A DNA stretch of 64,000 bases from Ruaniaceae bacterium KH17. Lineage in GTDB: Bacteria; Actinomycetota; Actinomycetes; Actinomycetales; Actinomycetaceae. The stretch is taken from contig FZQV01000012.1 of the NCBI GenBank assembly GCA_900199505.1, positions 1 through 64,000 on the forward strand. The letters run 5' to 3'. The translations under genes and the position numbers were made by a program. The notes below the pieces were generated by a model. It made no database searches. It saw nothing but the letters and a program-made list of their open reading frames with translations, and had not been told where the DNA came from. Shown here piece after piece: positions 8,566 through 18,245 of the stretch; within the stretch, counting starts at the first letter, position 1, and the number at the start of each line of letters is the position of its first letter.

Positions 8566-11500
8566 TTGTTACTCGGCAAGGAAGAGCTTCACCTGGGGCT
8601 CGACATTGGCTCTACGACCGTCAAGGCCGTCCTCATGCACGGCAGCCACGTGGTGTTCTCGGACTATCGCCGCCACAATGCCGATGTCCGCGGTGAGCTG
8701 CTGAACCTGCTCGAAGAGATGGCGGAGAAGTTCCCGCACGCCACGGTCACCGCCGCAGTGACCGGCTCGGCTGGACTCTCGTTGGCATCCGCGATGGGTG
8801 TGCAGTTCGTCCAAGAGGTCATCGCCGGAACTGAGGCCGTGCAGCGCCTGCACCCGGAGGTCGACGTCGTCATCGAGCTCGGTGGCGAAGACGCCAAGAT
8901 CACCTACCTGCACCCGAGCCCCGAGCAACGCATGAACGGCACCTGCGCGGGCGGCACCGGCGCCTTCATCGACCAGATGGCAACGCTCCTACACACCGAT
9001 CCCACCGGCCTGAACGAACTCGCCACGAACCACACACAGCTTTACCCGATCGCCTCGCGCTGCGGCGTGTTCGCCAAGTCGGACCTGCAGCCGCTACTGA
9101 ACCAAGGCGCCGCGCATGAAGACCTCGCCGACTCGATCTTCACCGCCGTTGCCACGCAAACCATCGCCGGTCTCGCCAACGGCCGTCCAATACGTGGCAA
9201 CGTGATGTTCCTCGGTGGGCCGCTACACTTCCTGCCCGAGCTTCGCAAGGCCTACGAGACGCTCCTCCCAAAGGCCGAGAGCTTCGTGACGCCCGAGAAC
9301 GCCCAGCTCTACGTGGCCGTGGGTGCCGCGCTCGTGGCCGCGAACACTGATGCCTACCACTCGCCGCACCCGCCGCGCCCACTCGCCGTGCTGGGGGAGG
9401 AACTCGCGCGCGCCACTGTGGCCGCCGAATCGGTCCGGATGCGTCCCCTCTTTGCCGACGCCGCCGAACGGGCCGAGTTCATGGAGCGGCACGGCCGCGA
9501 CGAGGTCGAGATCCTCCCTATCTCCGAAGCAAAAGGCCGCTGCTGGCTCGGCATCGATGCCGGTTCCACGACGATCAAGGCCGTGGTGATCGACGAGGAG
9601 CAGCGGATCCTCTTCTCGCACTACGCCTCGAACGAGGGTGATCCAGTGGCCGCCGCCGTGGCGATCCTGAAGCGGGTGCGCACCGAACTGCCAGAAGGTG
9701 CGAGCATCGGCCGCGCCTGCTCCACCGGATACGGCGAGGCGCTCGTGAAGTCCGCGCTGCGCATGGACGAGGGCGTCGTGGAGACCATGGCGCACTTCCG
9801 CGCCGCCGATCACATGATGCCCGGTGTCACCTCGGTGATCGACATCGGTGGTCAGGACATGAAGTACCTGAAGATCCGCGACGGCGCCGTGGACTCGATC
9901 TCCGTGAACGAGGCCTGCTCCTCCGGCTGTGGCTCGTTCCTACAGACCTTCGCCGCCACCATGGGCACGGACGTGCAGACCTTCGCCCAGCGCGCCGTCG
10001 AATCGACCGCCCCGGTAGACCTTGGCACACGCTGCACCGTGTTCATGAACTCTTCGGTGAAGCAGGCACAGAAGGAAGGCGCGAACGTCCGGGACATCTC
10101 GGCCGGCCTCTCCTACTCCGTGATCCGCAACGCCCTCTACAAAGTGATCAAGCTGAAGGACCCCTCGGACCTTGGGGACAAGGTCGTGGTCCAGGGCGGA
10201 ACCTTCCTGAACGACGCCGTGCTGCGCGCCTTCGAACTGCTCACCGAGCGCGAGGTGGTGCGCCCGAGCATTGCCGGCTTGATGGGAGCGTACGGAGCGG
10301 CCCTGACCGCGAAAGCGAACGACGTCGGGCAAGATTCCACGCTCGCGCAGCTCAGCGATCTTGACAACTTCAGCGTGGAGACCACGCGCAAGACGTGCCG
10401 GCTCTGCCAGAACCACTGCCAGATGACGATCTCGACCTTCTCCAACGGTGAGCGGAACGTCTCGGGCAACCGCTGTGATCGCGGTGCGTCGCTGGAGCGA
10501 ATCCCGAAGAAGTCCGAGCTGCCGAACATGTACGACTGGAAGTACAAGCGGCTGTTCGGCTACCGCCGCCTCACGGAGGACAAGGCGACCCGTGGCGACA
10601 TGGGCCTGCCGCGCGTGCTCAACCTGTACGAAAACTACCCGTTCTGGTTCACGATGCTCACCAAGCTGGGCTTCCGTGTGATGATCTCGGGACGTTCGGA
10701 TCACGACCTGTTCGAGAAGGGCATGGAGTCGATCCCGTCCGAGAACGTCTGCTATCCGGCGAAGCTCGTGCATGGGCACATCGAATCGCTGCTGGACAAG
10801 GGCGTGGAGACGATCTTCTACCCGTGCGTCAACTACGAGGTCAAGGAGTTCGAAGGCGCGGATAACAATTTCAACTGCCCCGTGGTGGCCACCTATCCCG
10901 AGGTGATTCGCAACAACATTGAGCGGATCGTGGGCGGCCAGGCGCGGCTGGTCTCCCCGTTCGTGAACCTGGGCAACCGCGAGTACCTCGCCAAGCACCT
11001 CGCCGAGGAGTTTGCGGACTGGGATGTCACCGTCGACGAGATGCAGGAGGCGCTCGACGCCGCCTGGGAGGAGCAGGAGTCCTTCAAGCGCGACGTTCGC
11101 GAAAAGGGCGAGGAATACATCGAGTGGATGCGGGAGCGGGGCGTGCGCGGGATCGTGCTCGCGGGCCGGCCCTACCACCTCGACCCCGAGATCAACCACG
11201 GCATCCCCGAGGTCATCAACGGCCTCGGCATGGGCGTGCTCACCGAGGATGCGGTTTCCGATGGGCGCCTGGAGCGGCCGCTCCGCGTGCGCGATCAGTG
11301 GTCCTACCATTCGCGGCTCTACGAAGCCGCCGCCCGCGTGGGTGACGAGCCGGACCTGCAGATGGTGCAGCTGAACTCCTTCGGTTGTGGCGTGGATGCC
11401 GTCACGGCGGATCAGGTGCAGGAGATCCTCGAAGGCCGCAACGACGTGCACACGGTGCTCAAGATCGACGAGGTCTCCAACCTCGGTGCCGCCAAGATCC

Positions 11501-13080
11501 GGCTGCGCTCGCTGGAGGCCGCGGTGGAAGAGCGTTCCTCGCTGACCTCGGAGCACGTCGACACGTTGAGGATTGTTGACCCCTCGGGCCGCGCGGCTGC
11601 CGAAGAGAAGAAGGCCGCCGACGCCGGCCACATCACGCCGCGGGCGGTGTTCACCGAGGAGATGCGCGACGCGGGCTGGGAGATCCTGGTCCCGCAGATG
11701 GCGCCGATCCAGTTCCGGCTCCTCGAGCCGGTGCTGCGAAATGCTGGAATCAACGCGCGCGTGCTTGAGCACACGAACCGCGACACCATGGAGACGGGCC
11801 TCAAGTTCGTCAACAACGACTCCTGCTATCCGGCGATCGTGGTCATCGGCCAGCTGATCGACGAGTTCATCACCGGCCGCGCAGACCCGAACAAGACCGC
11901 CGTGGCGATCACGCAAACCGGTGGCATGTGCCGCGCAACCAACTATGCGGCGCTGCTCCGCAAGGGTCTGAAGGACGCCGGATACGCGCAGGTTCCGGTG
12001 ATCGCCATCTCGGTCCAGGGGATTGAGGATAATCCCGGCTTCCACGTGGGTGCGGGCGATCTGCACAAGGCGATCCAGGCCATCGTTCTTGGCGACACGA
12101 TCCAGTCCATGCTGCTCCGCGTCCGGCCTTACGAGGCCGTGCCCGGCTCGGCGATGGACCTCTACGAGGAGTGGAACGCGCGCTGCAGCGACTGGCTCAC
12201 CAAGGGCGGCTACTCGGAGCACTGGCGCGGGCACTGGTCCTACCGGAAGCTCATCTCGCGCATGGTCGAGGCCTTCGATCGCTTCGAATTGCTGGACATT
12301 CCGCGCAAGCCCCAGGTGGGCGTCGTCGGCGAAATCCTGGTGAAGTTCCACCCGGATGCGAACAACCACGCCGTGGATGTGATTGAAGCGGAGGGCTGCG
12401 AGGCCGTGCTGCCTGGGCTGATGCAGTTCTTCCACAACTCCTCGGCCACCGGCGCGTGGCGGCAGAAGCACCTGGGCGAGTCCACGAAGTCTCGCGTGGC
12501 GAAGGGCGCAGCGCTGTGGGCCATGGAGCGGTACGAGGACGCCGTGCACGCGGCGTTCAAGCGCTCGACCCGGTTCGAACCGCACCGCGGCATCCGCGAG
12601 ATGGCGGAGCGCTCACAGGACATCGCGCGGGTGGGCAACCAGGCCGGTGAGGGCTGGTACCTGACCGCGGAGATGGTGGACATGATCGAGCACGATTGCC
12701 CGAACATTATCTGCGCGCAGCCGTTTGCCTGCCTGCCGAACCACATCATCGGCAAGGGCATGTTCCGTGCGCTGCGAAACCGGTACCCGGAGGCGAACAT
12801 CGTCTCGGTGGACTTCGATCCCGGCGCGTCCGAGGTGAACCAGCTCAACCGCATCAAGCTCATGCTTTCGACCGCGTTGCAGCAGCACACCGATGGAGAC
12901 CCCCGCCTCGACTTCTCCGAGGATGTGGGCATCGTGTGGGATGAGATCCAGGCGGCGGAGTCGAGTTGCGGCGGCTGCGGCCTGCTGGCGCTCGCCGACG
13001 ACGGCGAGGTTGCGCTCCCGAAGCCCGTGAACCTGGGCATCCCCACCGTGCGTGAAGGGGCCCCCGTCCCCGTCGGCTGA
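8566..13080 (+). CDS. Giant acyl-CoA dehydratase activase-related protein (two BadF/HgdC-type ATPase domains plus DUF2229)
   Basis: A 1504-residue protein related to activators of (R)-2-hydroxyacyl-CoA dehydratases. Two ASKHA ATPase domains lie in tandem: residues about 9-265 (LDIGSTTVKAVL, CAGGTGAF) and about 327-590 (LGIDAGSTTIKAVVID, ACSSGCGSF). A four-cysteine cluster follows (611, 614, 618, 637), then the DUF2229 and dehydratase-like region with SCYPA motifs, and a C-terminal SCGGCG at 1467-1472. Classical activators are iron-sulfur ATPases that inject an electron into the dehydratase. This fused class is known in anaerobes and some actinobacteria but has no firm function. Start is TTG at 8566 with AGGAG seven bases upstream. 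No separate dehydratase subunits are nearby. Confidence 0.92.
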   Translation: MLLGKEELHLGLDIGSTTVKAVLMHGSHVVFSDYRRHNADVRGELLNLLEEMAEKFPHATVTAAVTGSAGLSLASAMGVQFVQEVIAGTEAVQRLHPEVDVVIELGGEDAKITYLHPSPEQRMNGTCAGGTGAFIDQMATLLHTDPTGLNELATNHTQLYPIASRCGVFAKSDLQPLLNQGAAHEDLADSIFTAVATQTIAGLANGRPIRGNVMFLGGPLHFLPELRKAYETLLPKAESFVTPENAQLYVAVGAALVAANTDAYHSPHPPRPLAVLGEELARATVAAESVRMRPLFADAAERAEFMERHGRDEVEILPISEAKGRCWLGIDAGSTTIKAVVIDEEQRILFSHYASNEGDPVAAAVAILKRVRTELPEGASIGRACSTGYGEALVKSALRMDEGVVETMAHFRAADHMMPGVTSVIDIGGQDMKYLKIRDGAVDSISVNEACSSGCGSFLQTFAATMGTDVQTFAQRAVESTAPVDLGTRCTVFMNSSVKQAQKEGANVRDISAGLSYSVIRNALYKVIKLKDPSDLGDKVVVQGGTFLNDAVLRAFELLTEREVVRPSIAGLMGAYGAALTAKANDVGQDSTLAQLSDLDNFSVETTRKTCRLCQNHCQMTISTFSNGERNVSGNRCDRGASLERIPKKSELPNMYDWKYKRLFGYRRLTEDKATRGDMGLPRVLNLYENYPFWFTMLTKLGFRVMISGRSDHDLFEKGMESIPSENVCYPAKLVHGHIESLLDKGVETIFYPCVNYEVKEFEGADNNFNCPVVATYPEVIRNNIERIVGGQARLVSPFVNLGNREYLAKHLAEEFADWDVTVDEMQEALDAAWEEQESFKRDVREKGEEYIEWMRERGVRGIVLAGRPYHLDPEINHGIPEVINGLGMGVLTEDAVSDGRLERPLRVRDQWSYHSRLYEAAARVGDEPDLQMVQLNSFGCGVDAVTADQVQEILEGRNDVHTVLKIDEVSNLGAAKIRLRSLEAAVEERSSLTSEHVDTLRIVDPSGRAAAEEKKAADAGHITPRAVFTEEMRDAGWEILVPQMAPIQFRLLEPVLRNAGINARVLEHTNRDTMETGLKFVNNDSCYPAIVVIGQLIDEFITGRADPNKTAVAITQTGGMCRATNYAALLRKGLKDAGYAQVPVIAISVQGIEDNPGFHVGAGDLHKAIQAIVLGDTIQSMLLRVRPYEAVPGSAMDLYEEWNARCSDWLTKGGYSEHWRGHWSYRKLISRMVEAFDRFELLDIPRKPQVGVVGEILVKFHPDANNHAVDVIEAEGCEAVLPGLMQFFHNSSATGAWRQKHLGESTKSRVAKGAALWAMERYEDAVHAAFKRSTRFEPHRGIREMAERSQDIARVGNQAGEGWYLTAEMVDMIEHDCPNIICAQPFACLPNHIIGKGMFRALRNRYPEANIVSVDFDPGASEVNQLNRIKLMLSTALQQHTDGDPRLDFSEDVGIVWDEIQAAESSCGGCGLLALADDGEVALPKPVNLGIPTVREGAPVPVG

Positions 13081-14407: not shown

Positions 14408-14974
14408 TCAGATATAGATGGCCGGGTCCATGTGGGGTAGGACGTCGTCGGCCGTGATGTGCTTCTTGATCTTGGCCGGGACCCCAATCGCCACGGCGGC
14501 ATCCGGCACGTCCTTCACGACGACGGCGTTCGCGCCAATCCGCGCATCGTTGCCGATGGAGATGGGGCCGAGGACTTTTGCCCCGGCCCCAATCACGGCG
14601 CGGTCACCCACGGTGGGGTGACGCTTTCCTTGGGTCATCGAGGTGCCCCCAAGCGTGGTGCCGTGGAAGATCGTGACGTCCTCGCCCACCTCGGCGGTCT
14701 CGCCGATCACCACGCCCATGCCGTGATCGATGAACAGCCTGCGCCCGAGCGTCGCTCCAGGGTGGATCTCAATCCCGGTGAGGCCGCGTGTGACCTGGGA
14801 GATGATGCGCGCGGGGAGCTTCGCGCCACGGCCCCAGAGGGCGTGTGCCACCCGATATGCCCATACGGCGTGCACTCCTGGGTAGGAGAGCACAATCTCG
14901 AGCCGCGAGCGCGCGGCCGGGTCCTCGCGCAGCGCGGTCTCGAGATCCTCAACGAGTTGCCGCCGGATGGGCAT
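14408..14974 (-). CDS. cysE: Serine O-acetyltransferase
   Basis: A 188-residue acetyltransferase that makes O-acetylserine from serine and acetyl-CoA, the first step of cysteine synthesis. After an N-terminal helical part come the left-handed beta-helix hexapeptide repeats: [41 protein letters not shown] and [14 protein letters not shown]. The catalytic Asp/His pair is in FIDHG and the second His in FHGTTLGG. It is short compared with the enteric enzyme (about 270) but normal for Gram-positive CysE. It follows cysK by 13 bases. The ATG at 14974 has no strong ribosome site; a GTG at 14986, just after the cysK stop, is an alternative. Confidence 0.93.
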
Positions 14975-14987
14975 TCGGGGGGACACG

Positions 14988-15920
14988 TTAGTCGACCAGG
15001 CCTTCGAAGAGCGGGGTCGAGAGGTAACGCTCGCCGAAGTCGGGAACGATGGCAACGATGGTCTTGCCGGCGTTCTCGGGGCGCTTGGCCACCTCGATCG
15101 CCGCCTTCAGCGCAGCGCCGGAGGAGATGCCCACGAGCAGGCCCTCCCGGGTGGCGGCGGCGCGTGCGGTGGCGATGGCATCGTCGGACGCGATGGCCGC
15201 GACCTCATCGTAGATCTCGGTGTTCAGCACCTCGGGCACGAAGTTCGCACCGATGCCCTGGATCTTGTGCGGGCCGGCAGTGCCCTCGGACAGCAGCGGC
15301 GACTCCTTGGGCTCCACCGCCACGATCTTCAGATCGGGGTTCTGCTCCTTCAGGTACGCGCCGGCACCGGTGATGGTGCCGCCGGTGCCGATCCCGGAGA
15401 CGAAGATGTCCACGTTGCCGCCGGTGGCCTCCCAGATCTCGGGGCCGGTGGTGGCGTAGTGGATCTTCGGGTTGGCCTCGTTGGCGAACTGGCGCGCAAG
15501 AACGGCGCCTTCGCGTTCGGACGCGATCTGCTCGGCGGCCTCCACTGCGCCCTTCATGCCGAGCGGCGGGGGAGTGAGCACGAGCTCGGCGCCGAACGCA
15601 CGCAACAGGGCGCGACGCTCCTTGGACATCGACTCGGGCATGGTGAGCACCACGTTGTAGCCGCGGGACGCGCCCACGAGTGCTAGTGCGATACCGGTGT
15701 TGCCGGAGGTGGCCTCGACGATCGTGCCGCCCGCGGGAAGCTGTCCGGACGCCTCGGCAGCGTCCACAATGGCCACACCGATCCGGTCCTTCACGGAGTT
15801 GGCGGGGTTGTAGAACTCGAGCTTGGCGAGGACGGTGGCCTCGGCGCCGTCGGTGATGTTGTTGATGCGAACGAGCGGGGTGCGGCCCACGAGTTCGCTG
15901 ACGTTCTGGTACACGGTCAT
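14988..15920 (-). CDS. cysK: Cysteine synthase A (O-acetylserine sulfhydrylase)
   Basis: A 310-residue PLP enzyme that replaces the acetyl group of O-acetylserine with sulfide to give cysteine. The PLP lysine is Lys44 in [11 protein letters not shown]. The substrate loop TSGNTG and the phosphate-binding GTGGTITG are intact. Length is typical. The ATG at 15920 is preceded by AAGGAG (15926-15931). It is the first gene of a cysK-cysE pair. The transcript probably begins upstream of a short cysteine-rich open reading frame (16009-16056) with hairpins in between, so expression is likely tuned to cysteine supply; this is inferred from layout. Confidence 0.96.
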
Positions 15921-15960
15921 GTTTTCTCCTTGGAAGTTCGGTGGGGTGTGGTGCCTGTGG

Positions 15961-16007
15961 GGAGCACCCAGCACGCGCGGTGGCGCGCTCCTAGAGCCGG
16001 GCGCTCT
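15961..16007 (-). promoter_or_regulatory. Hairpins between the cysteine leader peptide and cysK (putative attenuator)
   Basis: Read on the minus strand, AGAGC-GCCCG-GCTCT (16007 to 15993) folds directly after the leader stop codon. A larger hairpin follows, with outer arms GGAGC (15991-15987) and GCTCC (15965-15961) and an inner GCGCG/CGCGC pairing. No U-tract follows, so termination may need Rho, or control may act on translation of cysK. The hairpins are seen; the mechanism is inference. Confidence 0.45.
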
Positions 16008-16008
16008 A

Positions 16009-16056
16009 TCAACACATCAGACACATGCACCTACGGGCGGCGGCGACAGTAGTCAT
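16009..16056 (-). CDS. Cysteine-rich leader peptide upstream of cysK
   Basis: A 15-codon open reading frame encoding MTTVAAARRCMCLMC, with cysteines at positions 10, 12 and 15; the last codon before TGA is Cys. The sequence AAAGGA lies six bases before its ATG, so it can be translated. It is 88 bases upstream of cysK and is followed at once by hairpins. Short cysteine-codon leader ORFs that control cysteine-synthesis genes by ribosome stalling are described in mycobacteria. Three Cys codons among six at the end of a tiny ORF before cysK is unlikely by chance. Too short for homology, so the call rests on layout. Confidence 0.62.
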   Translation of the reverse strand: MTTVAAARRCMCLMC

Positions 16057-16082
16057 CGCGCATCCTTTCCGAAGGTGGCCTT

Positions 16083-16147
16083 ATGGAATCCATTCATATC
16101 GTGCACCTATTGCCGGTCCGATGTCTAATCGGGCGGGATGGATTCCA
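16083..16147. promoter_or_regulatory. Two TGGAWTCCA palindromes in the cysK-arsR divergent region
   Basis: TGGAATCCA at 16084-16092 (within ATGGA-A-TCCAT, 16083-16093) and TGGATTCCA at 16139-16147 are the same odd palindrome on opposite strands, 55 bases apart. They lie in the 304-base region (15921-16224) between cysK and the ArsR gene, upstream of the leader peptide. They could be a paired operator; no known regulator is assigned. Confidence 0.3.
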
Positions 16148-16207: not shown

Positions 16208-16226
16208 GGTATGATGACTTCATCAT
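16208..16226 (+). promoter_or_regulatory. Extended -10 promoter overlapping an inverted-repeat operator, arsR-sulP
   Basis: The perfect inverted repeat ATGATGA-CT-TCATCAT occupies 16211-16226 and overlaps an extended -10 sequence TGG-TATGAT (about 16207-16215). Transcription would begin within a few bases of the ATG at 16225, and no Shine-Dalgarno precedes it, so the mRNA is probably leaderless. The repeat is well placed for self-repression by the ArsR-type protein. Confidence 0.5.
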
Positions 16227-16596
16227 GCCATTAAGTAATTCCCAGCGTCCCCTCTACGAAGTCAAGGCGGGCGTCTTCAAGGGGCTCGCACATCCCATTC
16301 GCATCCACATCCTTGAGTTGCTGTGCGACTCACAGGAGCACTCGGTGAGTGAGCTACAGGCACACACGGGCCTTGAGGCGTCGCATCTCTCCCAGCATCT
16401 TGCGGTGTTGCGCCGGAACCGGGTGGTCAGCTCTGTGCGGCGCGGTAGCCACGTCTACTACCGCGTCACGTCTCATGAGGTTGTCGAACTGCTTGGTTCG
16501 GCGCGGCGGTTCCTCGCCGAAGTTCTCAACTTTGAGCGCGCACAGATTGCCGACGCCGATCGCCTCGCGGAGCTTCCGAGCACCACATCCTCGTGA
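16225..16596 (+). CDS. ArsR-family winged-helix regulator
   Basis: A 123-residue regulator. GVFKGLAHPIRIHILELL (about 13-30) is the typical ArsR entry, and the recognition helix is in GLEASHLSQHLAVLRR, followed by the wing VVSSVRRGSHVYYRV. The ELCVCDL metal site of ArsR/SmtB is absent (ELLCDSQEHS instead), so a classical metal sensor is unlikely. The ATG at 16225 is chosen because the domain begins soon after and an inverted repeat sits on the start; an in-frame ATG at 16138 would add 29 residues with no homology. It overlaps the SulP gene by four bases (GTGA), which ties the two functions together. Confidence 0.85.
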   Translation: MPLSNSQRPLYEVKAGVFKGLAHPIRIHILELLCDSQEHSVSELQAHTGLEASHLSQHLAVLRRNRVVSSVRRGSHVYYRVTSHEVVELLGSARRFLAEVLNFERAQIADADRLAELPSTTSS

Positions 16597-18245
16597 GTAC
16601 CTGGGAACACGTGCGCGGTCTGCTGCCACGCCGCGACGATTATCGCGCAGTTCGGAACACATGGCGGCACGACCTACTCGCCGGACTAACAGTCGGCATC
16701 GTCGCGTTGCCGCTCGCACTCGGTTTCGGAATCTCCTCCGGAGCGGGAGCCGAGGCGGGTATCATCACGGCGATCGTTGCAGGCTTCGTTGCCGCGATCT
16801 TCGGCGGATCTAGCGTGCAGGTCTCCGGTCCAACGGGGGCGATGGTCGTGGTTCTCGCGCCCATCGTCGCCACGCACGGGGTGGGCGCGGTTGCGGTGGT
16901 AAGCCTGCTTGCGGGCGCGATCCTGTGCGTGACCGGAGTGATGAGGATGGGACGCGCCGTCACCCTCATTCCGTGGCCGGTGATCGAGGGCTTCACTTTG
17001 GGAATCGCCGTCATCATCTTCCTGCAGCAGATCCCCGCCCTGATCGCGCCCTCGCAGCGGCTCTCGACGAATGCCGTGATTGCGGCGTTCCAAGCCATCG
17101 GGTCGGCCGACCTCGGCTACGCGATCTGGGCGCTGGGATGCGTCGCCATCGTGGCCACCTGCATGATCGGGCTGCCGAAGATCCACGCCAGAATCCCGGC
17201 GTCTCTGGTGGGGATTGTGCTCGCGACCGTGTTCACGTCGCTGGTACCGAATCCGCTTGAAGTGATCGGCGAACTACCAAACTCGCTTCCCGCTCCAGCC
17301 CTGCCGCAGATGGACCTTGCGCTCATCCAGCAGCTCGCACTGCCAGCTCTCGCGGTCGCCGCACTGGCGGGGATCGAGTCGCTGCTGTCCGTTCGAGTTG
17401 CCGCATCGATGGCCGACACCGGGCGTTACGAGCCCGATCGGGAACTTCTCGGTCAAGGGCTCGCTTCGATCGCTTCGGGGCTGTCGGGCGGAATGCCCGC
17501 CACAGGTGCAATCGCTCGCACGGCTGTGAATCTGCGGGCGGGGGCGCGCACGCGACTCGCCGCCGCATTCCACGCGGTGGTGTTGCTCGCCATTATCCTC
17601 TTTGTCGCGGCCCCCGTCGGTGCGGTGCCGCTCGCGGCGCTTGCGGGAGTGCTGATGATGACGGCGATCCGGATGGTCGATCGCACAACGTCACGTGCGA
17701 TTCTGCGCTCCACCCGCTCGGGCGCCGCGGCATTCGTGATCACCGCCGTCATCACGGTCTCGGTCGACCTAATCTTCGCTGTGATCATCGGAGTTGCGGT
17801 CACGGGGTTCTTCGCCTTGCGCGCGCTGGCACAGGCCACCGGTGTGCGGCGGGAGCCGATCGCCGGAGCGGAGCCGGGAGACGAGAAGATAGCGTTCATG
17901 CGATTCACCGGCCCGCTCTTCTTCGCGGCCTCCGATCGGGTCGCCGAGTCCGTCGCCGAGCACGGAGATGCCGAGGTGGTGATCCTCGCGATGTCGCAGC
18001 TGGAAGTTGTGGACGCGACGGGAGCCCGTGCGTTGAGCGAGATCATTGCGTCGCTGCAGCGCCGCGGTGCGGTTGTGCTCGTCAAGGGGGTGTTGCCTCG
18101 GCACGCGGATCTGTTCGAGCGGGTGGGTGTCTGGGAGGCGCTCGAGAATGACACGCACATGTTCTCCGAGATGGGGCCGGCGCTCGTGCACGCCCGCTTC
18201 CACATCGAGCGCGGCCGGTGCACGCGCGAGAACTCGGTCACGTAG
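16593..18245 (+). CDS. SulP-family anion transporter with STAS domain
   Basis: A 550-residue inner-membrane transporter for sulfate, bicarbonate or another inorganic anion. It has 10-12 hydrophobic segments, starting with LLAGLTVGIVALPLALGFGI and the SulP signature around GGSSVQVSGPTGAMVV. The cytoplasmic C-terminal STAS domain is at about 425-530 (GPLFFAASDRV, LEVVDATGARAL). GTG start at 16593 overlaps the ArsR stop. The substrate cannot be read from sequence. The nearby divergent cysK-cysE operon makes sulfate attractive, but actinobacterial SulP proteins also carry bicarbonate. The linked ArsR regulator is its likely repressor. Confidence 0.92.
   Translation: MSTWEHVRGLLPRRDDYRAVRNTWRHDLLAGLTVGIVALPLALGFGISSGAGAEAGIITAIVAGFVAAIFGGSSVQVSGPTGAMVVVLAPIVATHGVGAVAVVSLLAGAILCVTGVMRMGRAVTLIPWPVIEGFTLGIAVIIFLQQIPALIAPSQRLSTNAVIAAFQAIGSADLGYAIWALGCVAIVATCMIGLPKIHARIPASLVGIVLATVFTSLVPNPLEVIGELPNSLPAPALPQMDLALIQQLALPALAVAALAGIESLLSVRVAASMADTGRYEPDRELLGQGLASIASGLSGGMPATGAIARTAVNLRAGARTRLAAAFHAVVLLAIILFVAAPVGAVPLAALAGVLMMTAIRMVDRTTSRAILRSTRSGAAAFVITAVITVSVDLIFAVIIGVAVTGFFALRALAQATGVRREPIAGAEPGDEKIAFMRFTGPLFFAASDRVAESVAEHGDAEVVILAMSQLEVVDATGARALSEIIASLQRRGAVVLVKGVLPRHADLFERVGVWEALENDTHMFSEMGPALVHARFHIERGRCTRENSVT

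Follow-up and report, generated by a model that had tools for sequence, protein, structure and literature searches.

The cysK-cysE operon in the window (the whole 64,000-nucleotide, 64-kb stretch analysed here) is preceded by a short leader ORF rich in Cys codons, the end of which adjoins a conserved, covarying RNA stem. From comparison across related genomes, cysK is very likely under cysteine control, and the leader and stem together probably form a ribosome-mediated cysteine attenuator of cysK-cysE. The features are given below with strand and basis.

16063..16068, minus strand: Shine-Dalgarno site of the leader ORF, AAAGGA, six bases 5' of the ATG (sequence)
16009..16056, minus strand: leader ORF MTTVAAARRCMCLMC, stop UGA (translation; counterparts in relatives)
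16012..16014, minus strand: last Cys codon, UGU, the proposed sensor codon (invariant columns 10-12 of alignment A1)
15961..16020, minus strand: conserved RNA element, leader end plus composite stem, model R1 (cmsearch 56.7 bits, E 8.2e-11, whole genome)
15996..16006, minus strand: 5' arm of the long stem, GAGCGCCCGGC (covarying helix)
15962..15972, minus strand: 3' arm of the long stem, GCUGGGUGCUC (covarying helix)
15973..15988, minus strand: inner hairpin GCGCGC-CACC-GCGCGU (fold and covariation analysis)
15992..16008, minus strand: alternative small hairpin UAGAGC-GCCCG-GCUCUA (mutually exclusive with the long stem; -8.3 kcal/mol in the window)
15932..15960, minus strand: C-rich, G-poor spacer, candidate Rho-binding region (C 56%, G 11%)
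15926..15931, minus strand: Shine-Dalgarno site of cysK, AAGGAG (sequence)
14991..15920, minus strand: cysK, cysteine synthase A, the regulated gene (TIGR01139, E 4e-131, above cut-off)
14408..14974, minus strand: cysE, serine O-acetyltransferase, second gene of the operon (TIGR01172, E 2.5e-72)

A preliminary description of this DNA, made from its letters, had placed an ORF with its own AAAGGA site and the peptide end Cys-Met-Cys-Leu-Met-Cys ahead of cysK-cysE. The ORF was present on the minus strand (16056-16009, with AAAGGA at 16068-16063), the peptide end was right by translation, and the position on the same strand as the two genes agreed with the TIGR01139 and TIGR01172 assignments. Three Cys codons fall among the last six codons of the leader, which ends 88 nt from cysK; Cys accounts for 0.87% of the codons in the window genes. 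ORFs of the leader kind were defined as having 8-40 codons, a good Shine-Dalgarno site and at least three Cys in the last six codons. The window contained one, against an expectation of 0.05 (mean of 20 first-order Markov sequences). No sigma-70-type promoter was located 5' of the leader in the promoter scan.

Loci for comparison were collected via cysK from named genomes and from the family of the window. A leader with Cys codons was found ahead of cysK in 93 of 172 cysK-homologue loci, a few of the lowest-scoring being doubtful; examples are MMTAPMCCCECR, MGTLIPTSSCVCCRCLICL and MSIERSAAPAPASAVPTCALCDTCCRCCGCCCL, and the named holders include Demequina, Cellulomonas, Actinotalea, Isoptericola, Bowdeniella and Winkia. 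The leader was not found in the scanned Arthrobacter or Corynebacterium relatives, nor in most Brevibacterium. TGY codons in the leaders numbered 260 in frame 0 versus 17 and 41 in the other frames, which is partly a selection effect. Shine-Dalgarno matches of 5/6 or better preceded 57 of 79 leaders, that of the window included, and sites of the form (C)GGAAAGGA, similar to the leader site of the window, were present 5' of leaders in many relatives. When the upstream regions of relatives were aligned, conservation ahead of cysK extended through the family for the ORF, its frame, the Cys codons and the stem pairs, and the earlier cysteine-leader reading was thereby borne out comparatively. The cysE gene came immediately after cysK in 105 of 109 relatives.

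The RNA element was searched for with a covariance model, R1, built from 43 sequences, the window sequence among them. Exactly one copy was detected in this genome (E 8.2e-11; next best E 4.5). Matches were obtained in 121 of 213 genomes of the family, representing 23 of its 36 genera, and in 95 of the 99 that could be checked (those with a cysK row) the element lay 40-410 nt upstream of cysK and in the same orientation; the four exceptions were weak (E 9e-4 or worse). A sample of 396 genomes from the order yielded six more with R1, all ahead of cysK, while the class-level model search returned one match besides the window (L245, E 1e-3), with no cysK found nearby. An exact-pattern search over the class gave zero matches, the pattern being stricter than the element of the window itself. 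In a second family, R1 was detected in part of one genus, which to judge by a named member (L004) is apparently Gordonia, and it was lacking in almost every one of 301 genomes from the family holding genus g202. The strict filters applied in the large-sample searches lose weak matches.

The last Cys codon was UGU in 87 of 88 leaders. Earlier Cys codons of the leaders comprised 164 UGC and 70 UGU (of 234), and UGU made up 31 of the 158 Cys codons of the window genes. The last Cys codon was parted from the stop by one sense codon in 77 of the 88 leaders, and the last UGU was separated from the covarying stem by a fixed 5 nt. In nine leaders the last Cys was placed six codons before the stop; those inspected extend into the stem with the UGU-stem spacing kept, as in a leader ending ..CTCLKSVRL, where the stop lies inside the stem and the distance is unaltered. 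In the window the codon after UGU is itself turned into a stop (UGU-UGA-UAG). Three Gordonia-type loci carried a leader with a single Cys (..LLTDHCR), encoded by UGU; within a reading based on a single UGU, this one-Cys form would be a minimal sensor.

Two further observations were made on the leader ends. The stop was moved into the stem, with the 5' arm translated (..CLKSVRL, ..CMQGVRL) and the UGU-stem distance unchanged, at L115, L117, L118, L126 (genus g7), L167 and L162. The base following the last UGU was C in more than 90% of loci (column 13 of A1; L001 excepted), which makes CUN, CGN or CAR the usual codon at the next position. A selenocysteine reading of the leader was rejected because the stop was UAG in 71 of 79 leaders.

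At the leader stop, the consensus in most loci was UGU-CNN-UAG-AGCGYC..GGC, followed by a 5' internal loop, the inner hairpin and GCC..GGCGCUC; forms with a long interior occurred in Cellulomonas and Demequina. In the alignment of 43 sequences, 13 of 16 stem pairs displayed compensatory (two-sided) change and 92.1% of cells were paired. This level of covariation was attained by none of 500 shuffles, and slid controls paired in 29-59% (25-59% when those of the second alignment are included). A second alignment, of 78 sequences fitted to the model, agreed with this result, and such an alignment leans toward the model. The minimum-energy fold in the window consists of a single long stem, 16006-15996 paired with 15972-15962, which bears the inner hairpin; the composite stem has a free energy of -30.8 kcal/mol, and its first paired base is the third base 3' of the leader stop codon. 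Two hairpins had been proposed here; the structure is present, but in the minimum-energy fold it is a single composite stem, and the first of the two was probably the small UAGAGC/GCUCUA hairpin, a weaker alternative formed from the 5' arm alone. Nothing in Rfam 15, T-box included, reached the gathering score in the window or in 16 relatives.

In the proposed attenuator, a ribosome supplied with ample Cys-tRNA would complete the leader and depart, whereupon the stem would form and cysK would be off. In the OFF step transcription would most likely be terminated prematurely, at the stem itself in loci that have a U-run after it and otherwise in the linker, by Rho or with NusG assistance; in inferred order of likelihood the candidates are Rho, hairpin and translation. 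With scarce Cys-tRNA, the ribosome would wait with UGU in the A site. This codon is read by wobble by the Cys tRNA with anticodon GCA, and UGC is assumed to be the easier of the two to read. In the usual ribosome footprint, the first base of the P site and the leading edge are about 13-16 nt apart. While stalled at UGU, the ribosome would thus be expected to cover the base of the stem and its first four or five pairs, the stem could not close, and cysK would be transcribed. A ribosome at the stop codon would cover more of the stem but leave soon. In its most specific form, which is a serious possibility but is advanced tentatively, the element would belong to an undescribed attenuator class in which one wobble-read UGU is kept at a constant distance from a stem free of U-tracts, with codon identity and not just the amino acid selected across the family, the stalled ribosome blocking the stem base, and Rho the likely terminator. 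Several points count against the attenuator model: it has no strongly supported antiterminator, and no U-tract in the window or most relatives; it is not obvious how a ribosome halted before the stem would shield a Rho site in the linker; and starved ribosomes should meet the upstream Cys codons first.

Classical transcription attenuation, in which the position of the ribosome chooses between two exclusive folds, the small UAGAGC/GCUCUA hairpin and the long stem, is the likeliest of the alternatives but rather doubtful. The small 5'-arm hairpin was paired in 84.6-87% of cells with modest covariation above shuffles, and column 16/26 of A2 switches from A-U to G-C even though the long stem leaves column 26 unpaired. 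Its pairs with two-sided change, however, were not above shuffles (the count was reached by 359/500 and 92/500), the long stem and the stop codon constrain the 5' arm and may in this way create the palindrome, and neither fold would be left undisturbed by a ribosome at UGU.

The C/G bias of the window spacer exceeded that of all 296 control upstream regions. Over the loci, the linker from the stem to the cysK Shine-Dalgarno site contained 40.5% C and 20.7% G; C minus G was +0.198, compared with +0.010 for 296 regions upstream of other genes (p 4e-28, kinship ignored), and was also larger than ahead of cysK genes without a Cys leader. This composition is consistent with Rho binding, or with a linker that simply lacks structure. 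At a genus g2 locus (L141) and in Winkia a U-run directly followed the stem, and the stem itself is thereby suggested to be the OFF structure. Such runs were limited to a few lineages of this kind, T making up 19% of the 8 nt after the stem in 79 loci. Intrinsic terminators in the linker, at 17 of 79 loci versus 9.9 expected in shuffles, were not convincing. In genus g3 (L208, L215, L225-L236) a second short hairpin, (G)ACGG-NCGCGAA-CCGU(C), recurred in the linker, and other genera had different second hairpins at the same place.

A translational mechanism appears unlikely. As described in mycobacteria, a structure would hide the cysK ribosome site and a leader ribosome, when stalled, would uncover it; this has been reported for polycysteine sORFs of M. 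smegmatis, whose cysteine genes are cited for translation attenuation in PMC13236596, and the minimum-energy fold of the window does pair bases 5' of the leader with the cysK Shine-Dalgarno region. When 60 loci were folded with and without the leader masked, however, no consistent sequestration of the cysK ribosome site was found: mean accessibility was 0.45 for the full fold against 0.47 after masking of the leader region, with 15 loci up and 12 down. The distance from stem to cysK varied from 23 to 198 nt, and the pairing partners of the Shine-Dalgarno site differed between loci. In these folding predictions sequestration is disfavoured because accessibility follows no trend. The preliminary description had named Rho-based or translational control; the former gains support from the C-rich, G-poor spacer, while the latter found no consistent signal. 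The absence of a U-tract, which it had reported and taken to disfavour a terminator, was confirmed in the window, but the same stem is followed by a U-run in L141 and Winkia.

That the stem acts alone (in RNA stability, processing or protein binding), with the leader ORF a by-product, is very improbable. The stem is indeed the best-conserved part and the leader N-termini are variable, but in-frame Cys codons, Shine-Dalgarno site, frame and the fixed UGU-stem distance are kept across many genera. There is next to no likelihood of a chance ORF beside a GC-rich hairpin, which the GC content of the window (65%, making hairpins common) and a fold z-score of only -1.46 for the whole leader would favour and which conservation, covariation and gene association contradict.

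The cysteine attenuator proposed here shares with amino-acid leader attenuators in general codons for the product (Cys) ahead of a cysteine synthase gene and RNA structure adjoining them, both of which are present, translation being predicted. Compared with trp-type attenuators, there is no U-tract after the stem of the window, and the alternative fold would be the modestly supported small 5'-arm hairpin; with tna-type Rho-dependent attenuators it has in common C-rich, G-poor RNA after the leader stop. Canestrari and co-workers (2020) reportedly found that mycobacterial polycysteine leaderless sORFs control downstream cysteine genes by ribosome pausing and a hidden ribosome site. Those attenuators are leaderless and act on a hidden site, whereas most leaders here have a Shine-Dalgarno site and the cysK site is not consistently hidden.

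Seliverstov (2005; PMC1262725) proposed Cys leader peptides ahead of the cys operons of Mycobacterium and Propionibacterium acnes and ahead of cbs in Bifidobacterium longum, and Shell (2015; PMC4633059) found Cys-rich sORFs preceding mycobacterial cysteine genes. As here, the leaders of PMC1262725 are short ORFs that precede actinobacterial cysteine genes, have Cys codons close to the stop and lack an obvious terminator, and Rho was likewise offered there, as a guess. No conserved hairpin was seen in them, whereas the present leaders have a covarying stem at the stop codon and a last Cys fixed as UGU. The uORFC-8-2 motif of Rhodobacterales (PMC8632094), a Cys uORF ahead of cysS, is similar in that a Cys-codon uORF and a stem are proposed to control a cysteine-related gene, but it belongs to Alphaproteobacteria and another gene, has tandem Cys codons inside the first stem with UGC dominant, and is followed by a 3' U-run. 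In the ilvB leaders of Actinobacteria (PMC1262725; ilvB-II motif, PMC10272879) the regulatory codons also adjoin or lie within the OFF hairpin, but they respond to branched-chain amino acids and have an antiterminator as well as clear U-tracts. The MetL leader of metNIQ in Streptomyces lividans (PMC8079986) ends in RCMCRRMCAF, comparable to RRCMCLMC here, and has hairpins without a clear terminator; it is leaderless, and it differs from the present leaders in preceding another gene and in having been read as methionine-dependent. By analogy of its Cys pattern, MetL (Table 4 of PMC8079986) may sense cysteine.

No description of the R1 element was met in the literature searched, mainly papers outside subscription. 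The peptide, considered undescribed in the preliminary description, was likewise absent from the sources searched, but its class, the Cys leaders of Actinobacteria, dates from 2005 (PMC1262725). Cys leader peptides are thus known; the defined RNA architecture of leader end plus stem is new, and supplies a supporting structure for leaders that were proposed in 2005 without one. With strong covariation, a single copy per genome and one target gene, the element is suitable for entry as an RNA family and for direct testing. The near-absolute UGU at one position (87/88) is an unusual natural case of codon choice in a sensor that looks selected, and the element offers a simple handle on gene control by ribosome position where intrinsic terminators are without U-tracts.

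Several minor observations concern the surrounding DNA. An inverted repeat (TGGAATCCAT ... ATGGATTCCA, 16084-16093 and 16138-16147, about 54 bp apart) lies upstream of the leader and could represent two operator sites for a cysK regulator. Divergently on the plus strand are an ArsR-type regulator (PF01022) and then a SulP sulfate permease with a STAS domain (PF00916), together with an inverted repeat, ATGATGACTTCATCAT; the set is placed at 16211-16226 and 16225-18245. The repeat overlaps the start codon of the ArsR-type regulator and is probably its own operator, and the arrangement is probably a sulfur-linked divergent pair. An unusually long ORF of 1504 aa (8566-13080, plus strand) contains two activase-type halves and CoA-dehydratase-like regions, as read from the translation alone.
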